Shown one piece after another: positions 1,908 to 14,253 of a DNA stretch of 64,000 nt; position 1 is the stretch's first letter, and each line of letters starts with the position of its first letter. The notes under the pieces were generated by a model. The model saw nothing but the letters and a program-made list of their open reading frames with translations, made no database searches and was not told where the DNA came from. The stretch is from positions 124,001 through 188,000 of the forward strand of contig JAKOUY010000037.1 in assembly GCA_029782355.1 (NCBI GenBank). Reading direction: 5' to 3'. A program made the translations under genes and the position numbers. Origin of the DNA: Actinomycetes bacterium (lineage in GTDB: Bacteria > Actinomycetota > Acidimicrobiia > Acidimicrobiales > Ilumatobacteraceae).

Positions 1908-2852
1908 ATGAGAGCGAAGAAAATTACTCCGATAGTAGATCTCTCCGGCGATACGTCCGAAGCTTTCTGCACGGGTCAGAACGATCCGGCTTTGGTCAGT
2001 CGCCTGCAAAATCAAATCTCCGAGAAGGGATTCGTGTATGTTCGTCCTTCTTCGGCGACCTTCGCCTCGATTGAAGAGTTGCGACGCTATAGTCTGTCCT
2101 TCTTCCTACAGCCAACTCGCTTAAAACGGAAAGTCAGCCTCAGGCCGGGGGCGTATCGAGGATGGACCCCATCTGGCGTAGAGACGGCTGATGGGCGAAG
2201 ACAGCCGGACATCAAGGAGATACTGTCCTTCGGGAACGGCGGCAAGAATGAGGCCGGATGGTATGCGAAGAACCGATTTCCAGAGGGCCTGCCGGAGATT
2301 GAGCGGAGCGTGGGCGAATGTCTAGAAAACCTGTCGCGAACGATGGACGACATTTCCGAGGTTCTGGCGAGCGCGTTTCCCGAGCCGTTCGGACACGCCA
2401 GTGATCTATTTCGTGAACCTCTCGATATCTTGAATATTAACTATTACCAGCCGAGCAAAGGCCCCTCATCGCCTACTATGAATGTGGGGAGTCACAAGGA
2501 CTTCGGCTTCATGACTCTGATTTCTCCGATGCCCGGTGGATCCTCCGGACTACAACTCTCAATCGCTGGTCGGTGGAGGAACGTCAACCTGCCAGCCGGC
2601 ACCTTGCTGCTTGTATTTGGTGAACTGGCCGAGGCCTGGACGCAGTCCATCATTCATGCCCCGGTTCATCGAGTTAACGGATTTGGTGCATCGCTTGACC
2701 GCGTTTCACTGGTGTACTTCAGATCCCCAAATCCTGCCCAGGTAATTCCCACCTCACGACGCTCACGGACCGTCGGCGAGTTTCTTCTAGACCGGCTTCG
2801 TTCTGTTCGAGCCGACCGCAGACCTCGTCTCGACGCAAATGTTCGCAACTAG
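1908..2852 (+). CDS. 2-oxoglutarate/Fe(II)-dependent oxygenase, isopenicillin N synthase family
   Basis: A 314-residue non-haem iron oxygenase. The facial triad is visible as His196-x-Asp198 and His254, and the co-substrate motif as Arg265-x-Ser267. The fold order (N-terminal variable region, then double-stranded beta-helix about residues 170-275) and length suit the isopenicillin N synthase/plant DIOX family. Members hydroxylate, desaturate or cyclise small molecules or peptides using 2-oxoglutarate and O2; the substrate here is unknown. The gene converges on the ATP-grasp gene, sharing the palindrome CTAG in which each strand reads its own TAG stop. Lower GC than the chromosome indicates transfer. 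With the ATP-grasp and methyltransferase genes it may form a tailoring cassette. Confidence 0.85.
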   Translation: MRAKKITPIVDLSGDTSEAFCTGQNDPALVSRLQNQISEKGFVYVRPSSATFASIEELRRYSLSFFLQPTRLKRKVSLRPGAYRGWTPSGVETADGRRQPDIKEILSFGNGGKNEAGWYAKNRFPEGLPEIERSVGECLENLSRTMDDISEVLASAFPEPFGHASDLFREPLDILNINYYQPSKGPSSPTMNVGSHKDFGFMTLISPMPGGSSGLQLSIAGRWRNVNLPAGTLLLVFGELAEAWTQSIIHAPVHRVNGFGASLDRVSLVYFRSPNPAQVIPTSRRSRTVGEFLLDRLRSVRADRRPRLDANVRN

Positions 2853-3748
2853 GCGATTAGAGCCTGTTGACAGATGGACCGGTAGAACGCGCACGCTGCA
2901 TCCCGATGGAAGCTCCCCAGTCCAGCAAAATTCTCAAAACAGATTCCTGAGTTCAACTCGAGCACCATTGTGTCGCCGCCTCTGATCGTTACAACGTCCA
3001 CGGCGCAGACTGAGAGGCCTACGATGTTGGCCGCGCGCAGCGCCATGCGCATAGCCGCCGAGTCGGGTGGAAACAGCTCGACTGCAGATACCTTGGCGCC
3101 TAGGCAAAGGTTAAACATTGGGAGCGCGTTGGTGTCGAGGTTTGCGGTCTTGCGATAGCTCAGGTGGCAAACGTCTGCGAGGATTAAGTATCGGTCCTCA
3201 TGGATAATGTCCAGTTTCGGCTGCACCAATATTCCGGAGTGCCTTCGAAGTAACTCCAGCCCAGCTTTGTAAGCAGTGTCCAAATCAAAAAAGACATCGA
3301 CGTCGACACCGGATGTGCCGTCATTTGGCTTTAGGACGACCGGATAGGTCGCCCTTATAAGAGCGTTGAAAAGCACCTCGTTGGAAGGCGTACTGCTAAT
3401 CCACGCCTGCCGCACCGGTTCTAGGACGAGCTGAGAGTCTACGCACGGAATGCTGCTGCGTCGTAGGAGGTCAGCAGTCGCAGCCTTGTCATTAGCAATC
3501 TGCGAAGCCACGCTCGTGTTAAGTGAAAACTGGAAGCCATAGCTGCGGAGAGTGTTCCGGCCAAGGCACGTTTCGGTCATCCAGCCGCCGTAGTAGTCAG
3601 AGTAGCGGGCCCCGAGTGTCCTGGCAATGGACTCCAAGGCCACATTTAGGTACCTGCGTGGTCCGGTCGGCGGTATGGCGCTCTCGTGCTGCACCGACTC
3701 AGAATAGCTCGTTGCTGAGACGAAGCGGCCGACTGCGAGCTGCGACAA
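2849..3748 (-). CDS. ATP-grasp ligase, D-Ala-D-Ala ligase/RimK-like fold
   Basis: A 299-residue ATP-grasp protein. The central domain shows the ATP-binding strand and glycine loop (VVLKPNDGTSG, Lys140). The C-terminal metal site is Asp251 with Glu264 and Asn266 in LELNSG. A DK motif near residue 87 is typical of short ATP-grasp ligases. Such enzymes form a carboxylate-amine (amide) or ester bond through an acyl phosphate; some modify ribosomal peptides. The frame opens at TTG 3748 with no strong ribosome site; the N-terminal about 25 residues are uncertain. A Cys-rich short ORF ends 33 nt upstream on the same strand. The substrate is unknown. Confidence 0.8.
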   Translation of the reverse strand: MSQLAVGRFVSATSYSESVQHESAIPPTGPRRYLNVALESIARTLGARYSDYYGGWMTETCLGRNTLRSYGFQFSLNTSVASQIANDKAATADLLRRSSIPCVDSQLVLEPVRQAWISSTPSNEVLFNALIRATYPVVLKPNDGTSGVDVDVFFDLDTAYKAGLELLRRHSGILVQPKLDIIHEDRYLILADVCHLSYRKTANLDTNALPMFNLCLGAKVSAVELFPPDSAAMRMALRAANIVGLSVCAVDVVTIRGGDTMVLELNSGICFENFAGLGSFHRDAACAFYRSICQQALIA

Positions 3749-4220: not shown

Positions 4221-4249
4221 TTGACAAAACGCGGAAGACGTCCTATGGT
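4221..4249 (+). promoter_or_regulatory. consensus promoter of the methyltransferase gene
   Basis: TTGACA (4221-4226), a 17-nt spacer and TATGGT (4244-4249). The ATG at 4257 is 8 nt from the last base of the -10 box, which places the transcription start on or beside the start codon: a leaderless mRNA. This rules out the upstream TTG at 4221 as a start codon, since it is part of the -35 box. Confidence 0.7.
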
Positions 4250-4256
4250 CTATGGA

Positions 4257-5057
4257 ATGCCCGACTCTTCGCCGGAACCAGCGCTGTTTTCCGACGGCGA
4301 CGTCGAATATATCCGACTACGAAGCATGGAGGCTGCATATGACGATGAGTCGATAGCTGTCTTCGGGACGATTGGCGTCTCTGCCGGCTGGCGATGCCTC
4401 GACGTAGGCGCAGGTGCAGGCTCCGTCGCGATTGCAATGAAAGAGCGAGCCGGGTCGGTGTGGGCACTTGACATAAATGCTGAACACCTTCGAAAGTTGG
4501 AGTCCGTCGAGTTTCGAGTGATTGAGGCGGATCTCACGGCGGCGCTCGCGCAGTCGGACATTATTCCCGACGGGCTGGACTTGGTGCACAGTCGACTCCT
4601 GTTCGGTCTCTTTCGAGATCCAGTAAACGAGATTCTTGGTCTTTGTAGTCGCTTGAAACCCGGAGGCTGGATATATATCGAAGAGTTCGACGACATCACC
4701 TTCAGTGCAGCGTCTGGAAGCAGACGGTCGATTGACCTACATCGTAAGGTGGTAGATGCCAAGAATGCCGCATGGGCTCGAAAGGGACTCGATAGCTACG
4801 TCGGACGCCAAGTCTTGCAGTGGATTCATTTCGCCGGAATCGAGCGTGCCGAAGCATTCGGGAGTTGCAAGGTAAGACTCAGCGGAACCGATCAAATCAG
4901 GCCGTGGGCACTATCGCTACCTGGCATGCGCGACGCCCTGATCCGCGAAGGTCTTACAAGCGACGAGTTCGAAGAATATCGGGAGCAGCTCGAACGACCC
5001 GGATTCTCCTATCTCAGTCCAACCATGATCCGAACATTCGGGCAGTCTCGTCGCTGA
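4257..5057 (+). CDS. class I SAM-dependent methyltransferase
   Basis: 266 residues. Motif I of the Rossmann-like SAM-binding domain is CLDVGAGAGSVA (about residues 47-58). The acidic residue ending strand 2 (WALDIN, about 72-77), motif II (DGLDLVHSR, about 107-115) and the post-II LKPGGWIYIEE (about 138-148) follow in the usual order. A helical C-terminal part (about 165-260) would form the substrate cap, as in Methyltransf_11/25-type small-molecule methyltransferases. The acceptor is unknown. The start at ATG 4257 is set by the promoter geometry. It is divergent from the ATP-grasp gene and convergent with the PRTase-like gene 50 nt away; low GC like its neighbours. Confidence 0.8.
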   Translation: MPDSSPEPALFSDGDVEYIRLRSMEAAYDDESIAVFGTIGVSAGWRCLDVGAGAGSVAIAMKERAGSVWALDINAEHLRKLESVEFRVIEADLTAALAQSDIIPDGLDLVHSRLLFGLFRDPVNEILGLCSRLKPGGWIYIEEFDDITFSAASGSRRSIDLHRKVVDAKNAAWARKGLDSYVGRQVLQWIHFAGIERAEAFGSCKVRLSGTDQIRPWALSLPGMRDALIREGLTSDEFEEYREQLERPGFSYLSPTMIRTFGQSRR

Positions 5058-5107: not shown

Positions 5108-7327
5108 CTACCGCGCCATCAGCGCGGCGATGCGAAGCATCATTTTGACGTACGGATCATCTTGTGCGGCAGTAGTGACTACTTCGGAGAGTGTGAACGG
5201 CAGATTCCCACACGCAATTGCGAACGCGAGTTCCTGACAACTGGCTAGTGGCAGTGGACCTTGAGCCCACTCGCTGATGCACTCCATGAGTTCGGAATCT
5301 GCACCCGGTCCGCGAAGTAGTCCTTTTGGGAATGTGCGAAAGAGGCCATACAAGAAGACGTGGTCATAGTAGGCTTCGAGTGCGGCTCTGACGTCCACGA
5401 CATCGATAGTGCGACCGTTTCTTGAGTCCCTAAACGTCAGAAGTATTCTCTCGGCGGCAGAGGCGGCCGCGGCGAATGCGACCGGCGCGCTGAGTTCGCC
5501 GAAGAACGATCCGAAAGTTCGATGCGTTGCAGGATCCTCCATCGCGCTCGTCCAGTGACGATCGTATGCGAAGGTCTGGTTTAACTCACGTATCCGGTCG
5601 TTTATTTGTACTCGTTGTGAATCGTTACGATCAAACAGCTGTCTGGCGGATCGTAGGAGTTCGGTTTCAATGCAAAATGGGCAACGACTATCGGGGGCCA
5701 TGTAGACCCTGTTAGCAAATCCGATCCCGGCCGAGGTCGGCGTTCTGTATCGGCGAGCAAGGCGCTGTTCTGCGCGAGAGTTCGCGCCAGGGTTAGTGGG
5801 ACTGGATATGTCAGAGCGCGTACCCGACGGCCGCAGCACTAAGACAAACAAGCCGATCGCGGGGTTTGTCCCATTGCCAGGTAAGGCGGCACACCGATAA
5901 TTGATTCGCTCGCGGAACCTTGCGAGCGTCCATCCGCTTACAGCCACCTCGGCGAGGATTAGAGGTTGTCGAGCCGAAATGATCTTTTCGGCGTCCGCTG
6001 CCGAGACGTCGTCACGATCGGTTAGCAGTATTCGCGCTGAAGGCAACGCAAGGGACGCAATCGCGATTCGATGCTCTTGTGCAGACCCGCCCGGTATGAC
6101 TATGAGGTCTGCGTCGGGACTGTGGGCTGACAGCCGATGTGTCGCGGTCTCAACCATCTCTTGGTCAGAATATAGACGCTCAACGTCTATCCAGTAAGCT
6201 CGATGTACCCCCAAAGGGTCCCCTCCGTGGGTGACGAGCGAGTCCGTGCGTTCTACGGCCTCCCAGAAAGGTTTGCCTTCACGTGCGAGCGTGGGCGATA
6301 CTTTGATGCGATTCCATTCGTAGTGCGATCTAACCTCGTATGTCGCAGTATCGATAGCAAGAAGCCCTTTGCCTGCACAACGGCTACACTCTCCCGTATT
6401 CGTCGTCGGCGTGGAAGTGTCCGTCGGGAGCTGAGACGACTTGTGTGAAGACACGGGAAACCGACATAACGAACTATGTTCCTCTCCCTCCTCAGACCCG
6501 GTTGCGTCGACGACTATCACAATTAGGTCGTCGACGCCCTTTAGCGCTTCAAGTGCACGCACAGTCGAACCACTAGAACTGACGGACACTATGAAGACAA
6601 TTCGCTTGTCATCCCCGTGTCGCTCTCGAAGGAGATCGAGCGACTCCGCCAGGTTGCTCGCGGCGGGATAGCCGGCGAAAGCATCTACTGTCAGCGTACA
6701 ACCGTCGAGCGATGCTTGACACCGCAGATGCTCGAGCAGGCTCAGGATGGATCCCGTGTCCGCCACGACAACGTCATGGTTCTTCAGGAGGGGGAGAATC
6801 CAGTCGGCCACCAACGCGATATTCGCCGGTCGGGTCAGCACACTTGCAAATCGTATAAATGAGTCGGCGTGCAAGCCTGATGGTAGTTCAAATACGCAGT
6901 CATCAGCGCGGTATATAGCTCCCGACTCTTCAGCAAGGGCGCTGAGCTCTGCGGATCGGACGAACGCGTTGAGCAACGAACCATCCAGTGGGGATTGGTC
7001 GGAAGGTCCATGGAGGAGGCTACATCCTATTGGCGAACCCATGGGCGAGCGTCCGACTGCCCAGATGTAGCTATTCGGCGCGAGGGTTTCGAGGGCTGGG
7101 GAGCTTTCGAGCCTGCTCAGCGTCTCCGGCGAGGACGTACGCAACACGAGATGCCCGTTGGATCCTACGTGTTGTATTGCTTCCTGGTGTTTTCGAATTT
7201 CGTTGACGAGCCACGAGGAGGCCGGTTTCGGGCTTGGTAACTCAACTATCGCGAGTCGGGAATCGCCGACGTTCATGTGCTCTAGCTCGAGTACGCTTCC
7301 GTGCGTAGCTCGCGAATATAGAATCAT
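5108..7327 (-). CDS. large protein with two degenerate phosphoribosyltransferase-like domains
   Basis: 739 residues. Residues about 145-275 resemble orotate phosphoribosyltransferase: an LPSGLHADSFIRF-type segment, a VVVADTGS strand-loop, and where the PRPP loop belongs (DDxxTTGxT in active enzymes) VSVSSSGST at 247-255, lacking the acidic pair. Residues about 405-475 repeat the pattern with AEVAVSGWT at 459-467, again without Asp-Asp. CxxC pairs at 314/317 and 549/552 could bind zinc. The C-terminal 180 residues are helical. No membrane segment. It overlaps the ATPase gene stop by 4 nt (ATGA), so the two are translationally coupled. Family inferred from motifs; a ligand-sensing or nucleotide-binding role is more likely than classic PRPP chemistry, but this is unproven. 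Confidence 0.6.
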   Translation of the reverse strand: MILYSRATHGSVLELEHMNVGDSRLAIVELPSPKPASSWLVNEIRKHQEAIQHVGSNGHLVLRTSSPETLSRLESSPALETLAPNSYIWAVGRSPMGSPIGCSLLHGPSDQSPLDGSLLNAFVRSAELSALAEESGAIYRADDCVFELPSGLHADSFIRFASVLTRPANIALVADWILPLLKNHDVVVADTGSILSLLEHLRCQASLDGCTLTVDAFAGYPAASNLAESLDLLRERHGDDKRIVFIVSVSSSGSTVRALEALKGVDDLIVIVVDATGSEEGEEHSSLCRFPVSSHKSSQLPTDTSTPTTNTGECSRCAGKGLLAIDTATYEVRSHYEWNRIKVSPTLAREGKPFWEAVERTDSLVTHGGDPLGVHRAYWIDVERLYSDQEMVETATHRLSAHSPDADLIVIPGGSAQEHRIAIASLALPSARILLTDRDDVSAADAEKIISARQPLILAEVAVSGWTLARFRERINYRCAALPGNGTNPAIGLFVLVLRPSGTRSDISSPTNPGANSRAEQRLARRYRTPTSAGIGFANRVYMAPDSRCPFCIETELLRSARQLFDRNDSQRVQINDRIRELNQTFAYDRHWTSAMEDPATHRTFGSFFGELSAPVAFAAAASAAERILLTFRDSRNGRTIDVVDVRAALEAYYDHVFLYGLFRTFPKGLLRGPGADSELMECISEWAQGPLPLASCQELAFAIACGNLPFTLSEVVTTAAQDDPYVKMMLRIAALMAR

Positions 7328-8439
7328 AAAGTTTCAACGCTGCCAATGATCGAAGCGCCCATTTGTGTCTCTTGAATTGGTAGCACTACGCACAGGGTAG
7401 TTCCGACAGAATTCGAGAAATGCTCCTCCCGGACACGAAACGATCCGCCAGAGGATGCCGTCGCCAAGCATCCAACAGTACCAGTGCGTATCGTGCACGC
7501 TCCACCGAGAGCATTGAGAGCCGAGCTGAGATTGTTCAATCCGTGTCCGGCGAGTCTCGTTGTTCCAAATGAATTCGGTTCAGTCTTCGACGTGGAACCT
7601 CGTTGGATCGCGCGATCGACGGCATCGAGCTCGGCAGCATGAGACATGGGATCGAGTGACCATCCCTGATCGTGTCGTCTTGCAATTCCGATTCCGCTGT
7701 CGCTCACCACGATTTGTAGGACTTCGCGGGTTCTGGTTCCGTCTAGTTGTGCCAAAAATTGGCGCCAGTACGATGAGAGTGCGTCTGGAGTCGGCCCTAA
7801 AGTTGAGAGGAGGCTCCCTATCGGGTATCGTCGAATGCTGAGAATTCCTCTCACCAAAGCCGGGTTTGGGTGTGGCTTTGCTGCGGCATGATCGATTACG
7901 TTCCACACGGCCTCCCATATCACGCTTGAGATTTCTCCCCTCAGTCGCTCGGAGTTTCGACTGAGCCCGAGGCCTACAATGTCGAGCCAACTGTCGGTTT
8001 CCAACTCGGTGTCCCTCGCAGTAAACGAGAGAAATTCTCTTCGTGTCTGGATGTTCGGTATGAGATACGCGTTTCCGCGAGCTAGAAATGGTTCGTCCAG
8101 CGGTTGAGCTTCCAATGCGTATGGCAGCTTGCGGTCGATTGATGAAACGATGCGGGCAAAGCCCGAGGTCAGGTGTAGGATTCCGCTCGTCATTAAGTCC
8201 GTCCAGTATTCGCTTCGTAGCCGCGCTGGTCCGACTATTAATTCGCATCGGTCGCCAGCTCGACAGGCAAGTGCGCTACCGAAGAGCGCTGACGCGCCGA
8301 ATCCGCCTTCTCTGAAATGTTGGAGGTTGATCGACAGCATGGCCCGTCCAGCGCTTTCGACGATTTGCCCAACCAGCTCCTCCATACGTACAGGCGGCGT
8401 GTACCGATCGAGATTGATCTTGATTCGCTTTCGTCTCAA
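7324..8439 (-). CDS. GHKL (HATPase_c) ATP-binding protein coupled to the PRTase-like gene
   Basis: 371 residues. The GHKL ATP pocket is complete: N box Glu176/Asn180/His184, G1 box DSGIG (247-251), G2 box GHGLNNL (299-305) and the GTT...LP strand (346-354). The first 160 residues form an unrecognised domain. There is no phospho-acceptor His domain, membrane segment or response regulator, so it is not an ordinary sensor kinase; the Hsp90/MORC/MutL or anti-sigma-type members of the superfamily are better comparisons. The start is TTG 8439: a TAG lies five codons upstream and AGGA about 10 nt before. TTG overlaps the preceding frame's stop (TTGA), and its own stop overlaps the PRTase-like start (ATGA). 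Confidence 0.75.
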   Translation of the reverse strand: MRRKRIKINLDRYTPPVRMEELVGQIVESAGRAMLSINLQHFREGGFGASALFGSALACRAGDRCELIVGPARLRSEYWTDLMTSGILHLTSGFARIVSSIDRKLPYALEAQPLDEPFLARGNAYLIPNIQTRREFLSFTARDTELETDSWLDIVGLGLSRNSERLRGEISSVIWEAVWNVIDHAAAKPHPNPALVRGILSIRRYPIGSLLSTLGPTPDALSSYWRQFLAQLDGTRTREVLQIVVSDSGIGIARRHDQGWSLDPMSHAAELDAVDRAIQRGSTSKTEPNSFGTTRLAGHGLNNLSSALNALGGACTIRTGTVGCLATASSGGSFRVREEHFSNSVGTTLCVVLPIQETQMGASIIGSVETL

Positions 8440-8894
8440 ATCTGGACCGTCCTAGAGGATTTGCGGTGTCGGTACCCGTGGTTCTCGCGAGGTAGGCAGC
8501 CTGCCTGCGCACGCCAAGATCGCCTATGTCCGGCGTCTTTGTGCCGTGAGTGGGAGGTCTGGTCCGGCGCTTTCCGATCGGCATCTTGCGGAGGCATATG
8601 ACGCGACTGGTCGTCAACGATGTCGCAACCTCGGACGGGTAAACGCCGGTGTCGACGACGAATCTGCCGGTGTCGAAGATCTACCACGTATCCGTAGCGT
8701 TCGAGGGCCTCGTCGGCGGCCGCTCCGGTGATGTCGTCTGATGGGGCCATGCCGACGAACTCGAAGGGGTCATGCGTCAGGTACTCACGCAGCGCGACGA
8801 CAGCAGCCTCATGGACCGTGAGGCCATCCCTGCGGGCGCGGCGTTCGAGATCGTCGGCCACCTCTGACGGAAGGGTCACCGTGATCTCGCTCAC
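8436..8894 (-). CDS. ribbon-helix-helix antitoxin-like protein with degenerate C-terminal half
   Basis: 152 residues from GTG 8894, overlapping the HTH gene stop by 4 nt (GTGA). The first about 45 residues match the ribbon-helix-helix DNA-binding fold of VapB-type antitoxins (MSEITVTLPSEVADDLERRA start), and the segment to about residue 70 is the acidic toxin-binding tail. After that the frame becomes Arg/His-rich and unprotein-like. In another minus frame, about 8600-8675, a short run (GRFVVDTGVYPSEVATSL) looks like the first strand of a PIN toxin. The likeliest reading is a vapBC-type pair whose toxin was destroyed at the island junction. Composition shifts from high to lower GC within the ORF. 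The overlap with the ATPase start may be coincidental or may now give coupling. Confidence 0.5.
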   Translation of the reverse strand: MSEITVTLPSEVADDLERRARRDGLTVHEAAVVALREYLTHDPFEFVGMAPSDDITGAAADEALERYGYVVDLRHRQIRRRHRRLPVRGCDIVDDQSRHMPPQDADRKAPDQTSHSRHKDAGHRRSWRAQAGCLPRENHGYRHRKSSRTVQI

Positions 8895-9340
8895 GTCTGC
8901 ATCCTAAGGGACCTCGGTCGGCCGGATGGGCGCAGATTCACGCCGACCTGACTTAGTTCCCGGCCCACTGTCCCGGCGTCGACCCCGTACGTGCGGCCGA
9001 GCACGATCAGAGAGTTGCCCGCCCCGTAGAGCTGGGCGGCTTCCTCGACTTGCTGGTCGGTCATCTTGCGCACGTTGGCCCGACGAGGCACGCCGTGTCG
9101 CTCCAGGTGATCGAGCACCGTGGTGCGGTGGATCCGCCACGACACTGCGAGCTGCCGCACTGACTGACCGTCGAGGTAGTCGGCTACCAGCTGCATGACT
9201 TCGGACTCGGCCAGTCGATGCTGGACCTGTCGGCGGCCGGCGTCGTCGCTAGTCTCTGGTGTTGCGAGCGCAAGCTCATCGGCGTGGGCTCCAGGGTCCT
9301 GAGTGCGCGGGTTCAGAAACCGCGCGGCAAGGACCACCAA
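8891..9340 (-). CDS. double helix-turn-helix protein, recombinase C-terminus-like
   Basis: 149 residues with two HTH units (about residues 50-82 and 95-130) of the kind found at the C-terminus of serine recombinases and in transposon-associated small regulators. Each has the pattern of a helix, a GQSVRQLA- or GNSLIVLG-type turn and a recognition helix with TTV/GTV. The frame is open back to the acyl-CoA dehydrogenase stop at 9374 without a good start (TTG 9340 or GTG 9337), so it may be the stump of a larger recombinase cut at the junction. It overlaps the antitoxin-like gene by 4 nt. High GC suggests an actinobacterial origin distinct from the AT-rich block. Confidence 0.55.
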   Translation of the reverse strand: MVVLAARFLNPRTQDPGAHADELALATPETSDDAGRRQVQHRLAESEVMQLVADYLDGQSVRQLAVSWRIHRTTVLDHLERHGVPRRANVRKMTDQQVEEAAQLYGAGNSLIVLGRTYGVDAGTVGRELSQVGVNLRPSGRPRSLRMQT

Positions 9341-9373
9341 CCCTGGTGCTCGGTCAGTCGCGTCGCCGTGCGG

Positions 9374-10495
9374 TCAGATCATTGCGTCCTGCACGGGTTG
9401 TCCGAGGAGATGCTTGCCGGCGGTCTCGTACATTCGGGGCGACACCATGATGTGCTGCGTGGCGACGTGCACGTCGCGCAGGCAGCGCTGCAGCGGGCTG
9501 TCCTCGAAGACCGCCGAACCACCGGCCGAGGTGTACACGGCGTCGACGGCTCGGGCCGCTGACTCGGCGGCGTGGGCACCGGCGAGGCGCATCGCCAACC
9601 GGTCGTCGAGCGTCACCGTCCGACCGTCCAGGACGCGCTGCCACGACTCGCCCACCTGGTGGCGCAGATAGGCGCGGGCAGCGCCCACGCGTGCCTCGGC
9701 ACGGGCGACCTCGGCTTGCACGGTTCCGGTCTGGGCAAGGGTGCGCTGGCTGAACTGCGGTCGCTTGTCCACCGCCAACTCGGTGAAGGCGTCGATGGCG
9801 TGGCGGGCGATGCCCAGTGCCACGGAGGCAACGCCGATGGCCAGCAGCGTGAAGCTCGGAAACGCCGCGCTCGGCACGGCCACGTAGCGGCGGCCCTCCG
9901 CCGGAACGACACTACGGCCAGCCGGCACGCGGCCGCCTTCGACGCTGAACTCCAGCGAGCCCGTGCCACGGAGCCCGACGGTGTGCCACGTGTCGTGGAA
10001 GGTGACGTCGGCGGCCGGGAAGAACATCACGTGCTGGGTCCCGTCGTCGGTCACCACGCCGCCGGCGATCCACTGGCTGTGCTGGGTGCCGCTGCCCCAC
10101 ATCCAGCGACCGCTGACCACCCAGTGGTCGCCGTCGGCGACGGCTCGCCCGTTGGGCGCAAACACGCCAGCGGCCACGTTGCCCGCCGGTTCGAAGATCT
10201 CGCGAGCGAACGACGGGGGCAGGAACGCACTCATCGACGAGGTCGTGCAGGCGATCATCGTGCACCAGCCCGCCGCGCCGTCGAACGTCGACACGGTCTC
10301 GATCACCTCTATCAGCGTCAACGGGTCGACCTCTGGTCCGCCGTACTCGGCCGGGACGCAGAGCCGCAACAAGCCGGCATCGCGCAGCGCCTCGACGCTG
10401 GCGGCCGGCAGCCGGCGGAGCTGCTCACCCGCTGCGGCGTGCGCGGCCACGATCGGGCCGACCCGCCGGGCGGCATCCACCCACGCCGTGATCAC
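9374..10495 (-). CDS. acyl-CoA dehydrogenase type-2 family flavin-dependent monooxygenase
   Basis: 373 residues from GTG 10495, which overlaps the upstream gene's TGA (GTGA). The N-terminal helical domain (LRDAGLLRLCVPAEYGG, about residues 38-54), the beta-barrel middle and the C-terminal helical domain follow the acyl-CoA dehydrogenase fold. The DGAAGWCTM segment and absence of the catalytic Glu region point to the HsaA/HpaB-like oxygenase subfamily, which uses reduced flavin to hydroxylate aromatic or steroid-derived substrates. It forms a coupled pair with the true acyl-CoA dehydrogenase upstream. The nearby KstD-like gene makes a steroid or polycyclic substrate plausible. This is the first chromosomal-type gene beyond the island. 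Confidence 0.75.
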   Translation of the reverse strand: MITAWVDAARRVGPIVAAHAAAGEQLRRLPAASVEALRDAGLLRLCVPAEYGGPEVDPLTLIEVIETVSTFDGAAGWCTMIACTTSSMSAFLPPSFAREIFEPAGNVAAGVFAPNGRAVADGDHWVVSGRWMWGSGTQHSQWIAGGVVTDDGTQHVMFFPAADVTFHDTWHTVGLRGTGSLEFSVEGGRVPAGRSVVPAEGRRYVAVPSAAFPSFTLLAIGVASVALGIARHAIDAFTELAVDKRPQFSQRTLAQTGTVQAEVARAEARVGAARAYLRHQVGESWQRVLDGRTVTLDDRLAMRLAGAHAAESAARAVDAVYTSAGGSAVFEDSPLQRCLRDVHVATQHIMVSPRMYETAGKHLLGQPVQDAMI

Positions 10496-11715
10496 GAGCG
10501 CCCCTGTGCCAGCTGGGCGTCGGCCCAGGTCATGCCGGTGGTCGGGTCGGTGTCGTGGGGCAACCCGAGCACGCGCTCGGCGATGATGTTGCGTTGCACC
10601 GCCCAGGTGCCACCGCCGATGGTGAGCGCCTGGCTGAACAGGTACCCGTCGAGCCAGCCGGGGTCGAGCAGGTCGCGCCGGGGGCGGGCCGGGCCCAGGG
10701 CCGCGGTGTCCGTGCCAGGCACGAACCCCTCTCCGTCGGCGCCGGTCAGCATCGCCGGGGCGCCGATCACGTCTCGCGCCAGCTCCATCACCCGCTGGCC
10801 GTGGTGATCGGAGAGCAGCTTGCGGATGCTCGCCTCCGGGCCGGGCGGCTCGCCCTTCAACGCCGCAGTCAGGGTCCGCAGGCGGATCAGTTCGAGCACC
10901 GTGTGTTCGCAGTACGCCGCAGCCACCCGCTGGCGCAGCACGGCATCCGTCACCGGACCGTGCGCTCGGATGGCGTCGATCGTCTCCAGCGCCGTCGGTC
11001 CGTTGCCCCATAGCACCCCGCCGCTGCTCAGCGACACCCGCTCGTTGCCGAGGGTCACCTTCGCCAGCCGCCAGCCATCGTGGAGCTCGCCGATGAGCGA
11101 GTCACCCGGCAGCCGGACATCGGTGAAGAACACCTCGTTGAAGGTGTGCCCGCCGGTCATCTCGGTGATCGGTCGGATCTCGATGCCCGGAAGATCCATC
11201 GGGCACACGAAGTAGCTGATGCCGCGGTGCTTGGCGACGTTCGGATCGGTCCGGGCGATGAGGATGCCGAACCGTGCGTACTGCGCCCCGCTGGTCCAGA
11301 TCTTCGAACCGTTGACGACGTACTCGTCGCCATCTCGGACCGCCCGGGTGGCGAGACCGGCGAGGTCGCTGCCGGCGCCCGGTTCGCTGAACAGCTGGCA
11401 CCAGAACTCGGCACCCGAGAGGATCGGGCCGAGGTAGCGCTGCTGCTGGCCGACCGTCCCGGCGTAGAGGATGGTCGGCCCGGCCCAACCGATGCCGATC
11501 GGGTTGACCGGCCGCTTGACCCCGGCGCGGGCCAGTTCGTCGTCGATGATCAGCTGATGGATCGGGTCGGCGTCGATGCCCCACGGGGCCGGCCAATGTG
11601 GCGCCACGTAGCCGGATTCGGCGAGCTCCACCGCCGACGGGGATGGATGGGCGCCGAGCCACTCGCGCACGGCGATGCGCCGCGGGTCGTCGGCGGCAGG
11701 CAGCTCGAAGTCCAC
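10492..11715 (-). CDS. acyl-CoA dehydrogenase
   Basis: 407 residues from GTG 11715, set by a TAGGGT -10 box ending 7 nt before it. The three-domain acyl-CoA dehydrogenase fold is clear: substrate/FAD-binding QLFSEPGAGSDLAGL (about residues 113-127), NGSKIWTSGAQ (about 142-152), GGHTFNEVFF, and the C-terminal FAD-contact SQALTIGGGTWAVQRNII. It dehydrogenates an acyl-CoA at the alpha-beta position and passes electrons to ETF. The tandem arrangement with the monooxygenase-like gene resembles FadE pairs of steroid side-chain degradation in mycobacteria, but the substrate cannot be read from sequence. Confidence 0.85.
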   Translation of the reverse strand: MDFELPAADDPRRIAVREWLGAHPSPSAVELAESGYVAPHWPAPWGIDADPIHQLIIDDELARAGVKRPVNPIGIGWAGPTILYAGTVGQQQRYLGPILSGAEFWCQLFSEPGAGSDLAGLATRAVRDGDEYVVNGSKIWTSGAQYARFGILIARTDPNVAKHRGISYFVCPMDLPGIEIRPITEMTGGHTFNEVFFTDVRLPGDSLIGELHDGWRLAKVTLGNERVSLSSGGVLWGNGPTALETIDAIRAHGPVTDAVLRQRVAAAYCEHTVLELIRLRTLTAALKGEPPGPEASIRKLLSDHHGQRVMELARDVIGAPAMLTGADGEGFVPGTDTAALGPARPRRDLLDPGWLDGYLFSQALTIGGGTWAVQRNIIAERVLGLPHDTDPTTGMTWADAQLAQGRS

Positions 11716-12485: not shown

Positions 12486-12615
12486 GGATCCTCCCAGGTC
12501 GGAGTGACGAGACCAGCGTACTCCCGCGGGTCGCCGGTCGCCTGGGCCGCACCCGTCCGATACAGTCACGCCGTTCTTGTAGTCGATGTCAAGTAAGTCG
12601 CCGAGGGGGTCACGG

Positions 12616-14253
12616 ATGAGCGAAGCGCCGCAGCACTGGGACGTCGAGGCCGACGTGGTCGTCCTCGGCAGCGGGGGAGCGGCGCTGGTGGCCGCCCTGT
12701 CCGCCCACCACCACGGCGCGGCCGAGGTGGTGGTCCTGGAGAAGTCGGGCATGGTCGGCGGGACCACGGCGATGTCCGGCGGCATGTTGTGGATCCCGCT
12801 CAACCACCACCAGGCAGCCCACGGGATCGAGGACTCCGTGGACGAGGTGGTCGACTACCTCGACGCCATGGCCCCCGGCCTGCTCGACCCGGACACCGTC
12901 TCGGGATTCCTGGAGGGTGGTCCGGAGATGGTTCGCTTCCTGGCCGAGCACACGCCGGTCCGGCTCCGCCTGTTCACCGGCTTCCCCGACTACCAGCCCA
13001 ACCTGATCGGCGCCAAGGCCCATGGCGGGCGATCGCTCGACCCCGAGGCCTACCCGTTCGACGAGCTCGGTCCCGCCGCCAGCCGGGTCAACCCGCCGAA
13101 GGCCGGCCTGCCCAAGCTGACCAGCCGGATGGAGGACTACTACGGCGAGGTGGGGCCGGAGGAGCTCGAGGAGCGGAGGCGGCGCGACTTCCGCGGTCAG
13201 GGTCAGGCATTGATCGGCTCGTTGTACCGCGGCATCCTCGACCGCAACATCCCCGTGCACTTCGAGACCCGCGCCCGCCAGCTGTGCACCGAGGCCGGGC
13301 GTGTCGTCGGCGTGACCGCCGAGCAGGGCGGGCGGATCATCCGGGTCCGCGCCCGCCGGGGCGTGATCATCTGCACCGGCGGCTTCGAGTGGAACGAGCA
13401 GCTGGTCAAGGCGTTCCTGCGTGGCCCGATGACCGGGCCGATCAGCGTGCCGGAGTGCGAGGGCGACGGGTTGCTGATGGCCATGGAGGTCGGCGCCAGC
13501 CTCGGCAACATGTCCAACGCGTGGTGGATGACGTCCAGCAAGGAGTCCTCCGCCACCCGCCGGGGCAGCGTCAACAGCTACCTGCCCAGCCAGGTCGAAC
13601 GGACCTATCCCGGGTCGATCATGGTCAACCGTGCCGGGCGCCGGTTCGTCAACGAGGCCTTGAACTACAACGCCATCGGCTTCGTCCTGCACAACTACGA
13701 CGCCGACCGCTACGAGTTCCCCAACCTGCCGTTCTGGCTGATCTTCGACAGCCGCTTCGCCAGCCGCTACCGCCTGTTCACCAGCCGGCCCGGTGAACCG
13801 GTGCCGTCGTGGACGGTGAGCGCCGACACCCTCGACGAGTTGGCCGCTGCCGTGGGCCTCGATCCCCACGGCCTGGTGCGGACCGTCGCCCGGTTCAACG
13901 CCGACGTCGCCGCCGGGCACGACGACGAGTTCGGCCGCGGCGACAACACCTACGACAACTTCTGGGGTGACCAGTCGTTCCCGGCGCCGTACTCGACGCT
14001 GGGCCCGATCGATCAGCCGCCGTACCACGCGATCCTGATGGAGGCCGGGGTCAACGGGACCTGCGGCGGTCCCCGGGCCAACGGGGATGCTCAGGTCCTG
14101 GATTGGACCGGCCGGCCGATCCTCGGGCTGTACGTCGGCAGCAACACCATGTCGGCGGTGACGGCCGGCGGCTACGGCGGTGCGGGCGGCACCATCGGGC
14201 CGGGCATGACCTTCGGGTACCTCGCCGGGCGCCACGCGGCGCGGCAGGCCTGA
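12616..14253 (+). CDS. FAD-dependent oxidoreductase, 3-ketosteroid delta-1-dehydrogenase-like
   Basis: 545 residues from ATG 12616, chosen over ATG 12586 because AGGGGG lies 7 nt before it. The N-terminal dinucleotide fold has VVVLGSGGAALVAALSA (about residues 15-31), followed by GGTTAMSGG (about 46-54). The C-terminal FAD signature GGYGGAGGTIGPGM is near the end. This is the fumarate reductase/KstD flavoprotein family. In KstD enzymes it introduces the 1,2 double bond in ring A of 3-ketosteroids. Length and motifs fit, but related enzymes use other enones, so the exact substrate is uncertain. Transcribed divergently from the secreted protein gene. Confidence 0.75.
   Translation: MSEAPQHWDVEADVVVLGSGGAALVAALSAHHHGAAEVVVLEKSGMVGGTTAMSGGMLWIPLNHHQAAHGIEDSVDEVVDYLDAMAPGLLDPDTVSGFLEGGPEMVRFLAEHTPVRLRLFTGFPDYQPNLIGAKAHGGRSLDPEAYPFDELGPAASRVNPPKAGLPKLTSRMEDYYGEVGPEELEERRRRDFRGQGQALIGSLYRGILDRNIPVHFETRARQLCTEAGRVVGVTAEQGGRIIRVRARRGVIICTGGFEWNEQLVKAFLRGPMTGPISVPECEGDGLLMAMEVGASLGNMSNAWWMTSSKESSATRRGSVNSYLPSQVERTYPGSIMVNRAGRRFVNEALNYNAIGFVLHNYDADRYEFPNLPFWLIFDSRFASRYRLFTSRPGEPVPSWTVSADTLDELAAAVGLDPHGLVRTVARFNADVAAGHDDEFGRGDNTYDNFWGDQSFPAPYSTLGPIDQPPYHAILMEAGVNGTCGGPRANGDAQVLDWTGRPILGLYVGSNTMSAVTAGGYGGAGGTIGPGMTFGYLAGRHAARQA

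Follow-up and report, generated by a model that had tools for sequence, protein, structure and literature searches.

The DNA analyzed here, a window of 64,000 nucleotides from contig JAKOUY010000037.1 of an actinobacterium of the Ilumatobacteraceae (a host that GC content and gene content also suggest), encodes two adjacent genes that probably make up a little-studied anti-virus system recurring in varied bacteria. Gene A (positions 7324–8439, minus strand) encodes a GHKL-type ATPase of 371 amino acids, with a TTG start and AGGA upstream, and gene B (5108–7327, minus strand) encodes a protein of 739 amino acids with tandem domains resembling orotate phosphoribosyltransferase (OPRT). The two genes lie next to each other on the same strand and share the four bases ATGA, as an earlier note on this DNA had described, and because both frames are intact at this length and carry conserved motifs they are not chance reading frames. 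A defence role of some kind is likely from the genomic context, and we propose with moderate confidence that the pair is a mobile, ATPase-switched and nucleotide-sensing module directed against phages (or mobile elements), forming a divergent branch of the candidate defence family PDC-M65.

By sequence comparison, the pair belongs, as a distant member, to PDC-M65, a phage-defence candidate in PADLOC-DB 2.0.0 that comprises the genes PDC-M65A and PDC-M65B; the PDC models reportedly come from a 2024 preprint by Payne on defences embedded within immune systems. The window proteins each matched one PADLOC model at an E-value of 1 or better, A matching PDC-M65A (E 5.8e-7, residues 162–322 of 371) and B matching PDC-M65B (E 2.1e-7, residues 131–266 of 739). 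At an E-value of 1e-5 or better, PDC-M65A was matched by all 66 A proteins (best 4.4e-162) and PDC-M65B by 11 of 12 B proteins (best 2.8e-261), the window proteins included in both sets, and it is through the strong matches of its relatives that the window pair is placed as a distant member. The pair shares with PDC-M65 the adjacency, order and size of its two genes, each matching its respective model, but differs from it in its low identity to the aligned rows (13–17% for B, 12–21% for A), in profile matches that are only partial, in a second CxxC pair and in an RFNDGxIQA segment that is not kept. Its branch relatives, found on the Cupriavidus necator plasmid pHG1 and at a locus designated L110, differ further by acids retained in the second phosphoribosyltransferase (PRTase) domain. 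The suggestion that the system was undescribed thus stands only in part: PADLOC has catalogued the pair, and the term "PDC-M65" occurs in no paper of the open-access library searched. Among the papers listed by further literature searches, no title or abstract dealt with such a GHKL ATPase–PRTase pair. PMC11514479 uses the term "phage defence candidate" (PDC), and in figure legends of PMC13092281 a PRTase appears among validated Escherichia coli systems and a HATPase among predicted ones, either of which may or may not belong to this family.

The coupling of the two genes, proposed in the earlier note, was found to be near-obligate. Searches of genome contigs gave 161 pattern matches; relatives are encoded at 130 of these, from which the 80 best were kept as loci, and A adjoins B in 78 of the 80. 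The only loci without A (L046 and L067) both begin at or near the start of B on the contig, and A is cut at the contig edge in L025 and L045. A also accompanies B at both viral-contig loci and at each of the 11 plasmid loci where B is complete, and separate searches with A and B profiles in 275 genomes of one order identified the same seven genomes, with the genes adjacent in each. Homologues always standing apart and in housekeeping contexts, which the earlier note had named as speaking against a module, was therefore not the pattern found, the genes being apart only at the two loci cut at contig edges and as a C-terminal B fragment without A in Caballeronia (L016), which was left out of alignments and counts. 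When 85 A–B junctions were measured to the in-frame start nearest the stop of A, a choice that favours short distances, 29 overlapped by 4 bp, 20 overlapped by 1 bp, 28 had gaps of 0–30 bp, seven showed other overlaps and one was unresolved. At three loci A is spread over two frames beside a full-length B (L097:5302-6500, L048:8372-9612 and L043:172-1376), through frameshift, sequencing error or decay.

Gene A encodes both the motif boxes and the ATPase fold of the GHKL superfamily. The N box (7888–7914, minus strand; residues 176–184), the DSGIG or G1 box (7687–7701, minus strand; residues 247–251) and the GHGLNNL or G2 box (7528–7548, minus strand; residues 298–304) are all in place, and in an alignment of 66 A proteins, the window's included, E176, N180, R197, D247, G249, G251, G300 and L301 are identical in every row and G298 in 65. 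The complete ATP pocket (N box, DSGIG, GHGLNNL) that had been read from the window alone is conserved among these proteins. In the predicted model (predicted local distance difference test score, pLDDT, 73; predicted template modelling score, pTM, 0.78), residues ~121–358 align with GHKL structures at Z-scores of 8–10.8 (VIA-align). The Pfam family HATPase_c was matched below its cut-off only (E 0.0045), and a sequence search of the PDB with A gave nothing credible. Pfam detected no phosphoacceptor (DHp) domain in A, the N-terminal part of which was barely tested by the fold search. The MORC/paraMORC ATPases resemble A as GHKL ATPases in restriction-modification neighbourhoods, but according to PMC2292703 their partners are mostly helicases, nucleases and methylases, and the word "phosphoribosyl" does not occur in the main text of that paper.

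Gene B was claimed to encode two PRTase-like folds. The second of these (PRT2; 5696–6289, minus strand, residues 347–544) is borne out by the predicted structure (pLDDT 71, pTM 0.53) and on that model is surely a PRTase domain: among APRT and OPRT structures its best match was 1l1r (Z 12.1, root-mean-square deviation 3.0, 153 residues), with 2yzk_B at Z 12.0. The absence of any PRTase fold, which the earlier note had named as counting against its reading, is accordingly not what the model shows. The first (PRT1; 6503–6994, minus strand, residues 112–275), which VIA-align barely tested, is less sure but likely, as it contains the OPRT-like hood motif FELPSGLHADSFIRF, matches an OPRT profile and, in our reading of the predicted model, has the same order of helices and strands as PRT2. 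Against this profile, built from 30 PyrE-like sequences, PRT1 gave a hhalign P-value of 2.1e-4 (probability 46%, 41 columns at the hood motif) and PRT2 one of 1.2e-3 (probability 20%, 102 columns), with control values of 0.74 for the N-terminal and 0.49 for the C-terminal part of B; a direct alignment of PRT1 with PRT2 was marginal (P 0.0072, probability 5%; controls P 0.017–0.098). Compared with OPRT itself (PyrE, TIGR00336), B has in common the hood motif of its first domain and the fold of its second, and differs in its tandem arrangement, in a first phosphoribosyl pyrophosphate (PRPP) loop without acids and in its extra N- and C-terminal parts. Both CxxC pairs of the earlier note are there: C314/C317 (6377–6388, minus strand) is found in 65 of the 72 B proteins aligned, and the second, CPFC (C549/C552; 5672–5683, minus strand), is a mark of the window branch, common to pHG1 and L110, with both cysteines present in the window alone among the 72 aligned rows and no CxxC in that part of the other 71. 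No Pfam family was matched by the window's B, or by any of 12 B proteins at an E-value of 0.05; the B profile matched no PDB chain by sequence at an E-value of 5, and a search of BFVD returned no full-length relative, only low-scoring long rows and a Marseillevirus PRTase (probability 1.00, E 1.6e-3). On a Spirosoma plasmid (L007:7558-9884), B is annotated as two overlapping genes encoding a 138-residue N-terminal and a 637-residue main protein, a split which hints that the N-terminal part is perhaps a separable domain.

The PRPP-loop signature of PRTases includes an acidic pair, and the earlier note had claimed that both loops of B are without it. This holds for loop 1 (6563–6601, minus strand; residues 243–255, FIVSVSSSGST), where V247 and S248 replace both acids and SSGST is kept as the phosphate-binding segment, but not entirely for loop 2 (5927–5965, minus strand; residues 455–467), where A459-E460 stands at the acidic pair and one acid (E460) thus remains. 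In the alignment of 72 B proteins, the window's included, S248 (at the second acidic position), D190 and F157 are identical in all rows, which indicates conservation and not decay. As it lacks the acidic pairs of an active PRTase, B was not filed as one. It is nonetheless conceivable, though unlikely in our estimation, that B is an active enzyme in which PRT2 transfers or removes a phosphoribosyl group as a PRPP- or nucleotide-consuming effector, with PRT1 regulatory and A in control. The clean PRTase fold of PRT2, the single acid in the window and the intact pair (DD) in pHG1 and L110 all agree with such an enzyme, whereas neither D nor E occurs at the loop 2 positions in the other 71 aligned rows, the window being the sole row with any acid there.

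The neighbourhood of the pair is rich in defence genes. Of 93 loci, 14 have type I restriction-modification (RM) genes within ~10 kb (11 of 86 once near-identical loci are taken out), and some loci have as neighbours Avs1, Qat, nuclease genes, or TIR, dgt and ubiquitin-like genes. Among the matches listed, GajA and two genes matching an oligonucleotide cyclase lie near pairs, and further neighbours include viperin with PDC-S46 and a type IIG RM enzyme, as well as LmuB and GajA. In 246 near genes, 221 and 194 PADLOC models were matched (two sets), and in 121 far genes 42, these figures being counts of models and not of genes; with defence genes in both near and far sets, the surroundings are best described as defence islands on a scale of 20 kb. 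In the window itself, the claim of an AT-richer island was confirmed: GC contents are 0.546 for A and 0.566 for B, and the GC content at third codon positions is 0.548 and 0.588, respectively, against 0.941 in a comparison gene (12586–14253) 4 kb from the pair. The ~11 kb upstream of the window start on the same contig (L142) encode a large serine recombinase, an IS3-type transposase, an M78 peptidase, a helix-turn-helix (HTH) regulator, a Replic_Relax protein and a TrwB-like coupling protein. These genes suggest that the pair lies at one end of a mobile island of the transfer type, whose cargo includes defence and counter-defence genes; no direct repeat of at least 14 bp was found between L142:4500-7500 and window positions 8000–11000 that would mark the island ends.

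The family is sparse and sporadic. Most of its loci belong to Pseudomonadota and Bacteroidota, and other phyla contribute single ones; members were found in seven of 275 genomes in the order of the Caballeronia genome holding L055, and in one of 249 in the order of the Bosea genome holding L027, that one being the search centre itself. In the window's own phylum two of 396 genomes were matched, the window being the sole clear match; the second match covers 37 positions at an E-value of 5e-4 and was not accepted as a member. Together with the pHG1 and L110 proteins, the window's B constitutes, by sequence, a divergent branch. In a tree of 94 B proteins, built by a quick method that by its own warning places long branches unsurely, the window and pHG1 proteins group together (support 96), both on very long branches and away from all other sequences, with 19% identity over 624 columns; L110, which has a second CPxC pair, is the third member. 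The first relatives came from a plasmid search at an E-value of 10 (five records, two of them the same C. necator plasmid), from which a Niveispirillum match (L006) was dropped as a chance match. No close relatives were obtained by tblastn with B in plasmids and phages at 1e-5, by tblastn with A in plasmids at an E-value of 1, or with B as a single protein in viral contigs, and a search with B of 61 genomes, its own included, returned its own gene alone. A profile of the window branch matched four of 300 genomes of one order, of which G513 and, weakly, G442 and G550 contain real members; the match in G458, a frame of 110 residues that contains a stop, was not counted among them. The same branch search in viral contigs yielded 165 pattern matches and no relatives, and E. 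coli genomes contained no DNA resembling the Pantoea dispersa pair.

The proposed module starts from what was observed, namely the pairing, the conserved ATP site, the PRTase fold of PRT2, the kinship with OPRT and the defence-rich and mobile context; from these we infer a physical complex of A and B, a ligand, a trigger, an effector and an outcome for the phage. In this scheme, A would be a GHKL ATPase that changes conformation with ATP, and B a pseudoenzyme whose two OPRT-like domains keep the frame of the pocket, the first also keeping the phosphate-binding part of its PRPP loop. With three of the four PRPP-holding acids lost, the first domain at least should bind a ribose-phosphate ligand without catalyzing transfer, and this ligand could be PRPP or a pyrimidine nucleotide. 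In the healthy cell, the complex of A and B would be inactive; upon infection, a change in the nucleotide pool or a phage product would alter what B binds, and ATP turnover by A would then free the activity of the complex, perhaps through the C-terminal helical part of B, halting either phage replication or the cell. The earlier note's reading of a conflict (anti-phage) or nucleotide-sensing module is thereby supported to the extent that context can do so, by the pairing, the defence-rich neighbours, the mobile islands, the sporadic spread and the invariant, altered pseudo-PRTase pocket. A nucleotide sensor built from a pseudoenzyme and powered by a GHKL ATPase would, to our knowledge, be a new mode of sensing infection. 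The candidate, catalogued but uncharacterized within the reach of the literature searches, also gains an anatomy, in which a complete GHKL ATPase is strictly coupled to a pseudoenzyme of two OPRT-like domains, and the window adds to it a far-diverged branch outside the well-sampled family; the invariant residues of A and B are ready mutants for functional tests.

Several observations weigh against this proposal. The retention of both acids in PRT2 of pHG1 and L110 leaves room for catalysis in the window branch, and the profile matches are of low probability (46% over only 41 columns for PRT1 and 20% for PRT2 against OPRT, 5% between PRT1 and PRT2). By E-value, the top Foldseek row for B is the acyl-CoA synthetase 4gxr (7.3e-5), with OPRT next (probability 1.00), although with a template modelling score of 0.12 and a deviation of 27 the 4gxr match is not a fold match. 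Pfam (12 B proteins, E 0.05) revealed neither a toxic nor a nuclease domain in B. The PADLOC matches of the window are partial (161 residues of A, 136 of B) and might fall short of PADLOC's own score and coverage cut-offs. Genes farther than 6.5 kb from the pairs also include defence genes, pointing to islands and not to sharp local enrichment in a comparison made without a random-gene control, and at several loci the pair stands among ordinary metabolic or transport genes. Lastly, the thymidylate synthase ThyX adjoins the pair at six loci only, and as these all carry the names of rhizobia-like alphaproteobacteria, ThyX may have been added locally.

At these six loci, ThyX lies upstream of the pair in L008 (4630–5568), L009 (4468–5406), L010 (4646–5584), L056 and L058, and downstream in L027. 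In each of the three genomes checked, the adjacent ThyX is the sole ThyX and ThyA is encoded elsewhere, which makes ThyX an accessory enzyme going with the pair in these genomes; a literature search combining ThyX with defence terms gave, among the matches listed, papers on the ThyX enzyme. In rhizobia-like alphaproteobacteria, ThyX and the OPRT-like domains together point to pyrimidine nucleotides, adding a pyrimidine/thymidylate hint in one lineage. One bold extension, which we regard as rather improbable, is that the GHKL ATPase reads a tandem dead OPRT monitoring pyrimidine and PRPP pools, and that upon disturbance by a phage the pair turns off either the supply of nucleotides or the synthesis of DNA, with ThyX providing self-protection in some lineages. 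If true, this would be a new immune principle with a chemically unrelated second thymidylate synthase as built-in protection. The same ThyX adjacency, the OPRT-like domains of B and the loci without obvious defence neighbours could also be explained if the pair served pyrimidine/thymidylate supply, as a regulator or metabolic module without a defence role that is carried on mobile elements and has defence genes nearby only as further cargo, but the sporadic spread described above and the repeated placement near RM genes make this decidedly unlikely.

The anti-phage module proposed here assumes that A works as an ATP-driven machine; that A is instead a protein kinase of the SpoIIAB/RsbW kind phosphorylating B (e.g. 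at S248) in partner-switching signalling is very unlikely. The best structural match of A is indeed SpoIIAB (1tid_A, Z 10.8, 135 aligned residues, 24% identity, 1.8 above the next row) and S248 is invariant, but Foldseek ranks GyrB first (no row at or below an E-value of 0.001), histidine kinases, topoisomerase VI, MutL and GyrB follow at Z-scores of 8–9, a SpoIIAA-like partner was not seen, and the pocket serine may do no more than bind phosphate. SpoIIAB, the best fold match to the ATPase part of A, is one of the anti-sigma kinases, from which A differs by an N-terminal extension of ~120 residues and by its pairing with a pseudo-PRTase.

Other genes surround the pair in the window and just outside it. 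About 5.4–6.9 kb upstream of the window start (L142:11069-12616, minus strand), an AAA_15 ATPase resembling OLD, AriA and AbiLi lies beside an ArdA antirestriction protein and may be another of the island's defence genes. In the stretch that separates the pair from the transfer genes, genes for a 2-oxoglutarate (2OG)-Fe(II) oxygenase (1908–2852, plus strand; DIOX_N and 2OG-FeII_Oxy), a RimK-like ATP-grasp protein (2849–3748, minus strand) and a methyltransferase (4221–5057, plus strand) have GC contents of ~0.55–0.56 and are possibly a small biosynthetic cargo. These three genes, as well as the ribbon-helix-helix (RHH) and HTH genes on the other side of the pair, have no relatives beside other pairs and were therefore not counted as parts of the system. 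The latter two agree with their earlier description. The RHH gene (8436–8894, minus strand) begins with an antitoxin-like N-terminus followed by apparently out-of-frame or foreign sequence, and overlaps gene A by 4 bp; A stands where a toxin gene would follow. It shares a further 4-bp overlap with a gene for a small HTH protein (8891–9340, minus strand; HTH_38), which weakly matches the model of the CRISPR repeat-binding protein Cbp1 (NCBIfam, E 1.2e-4).

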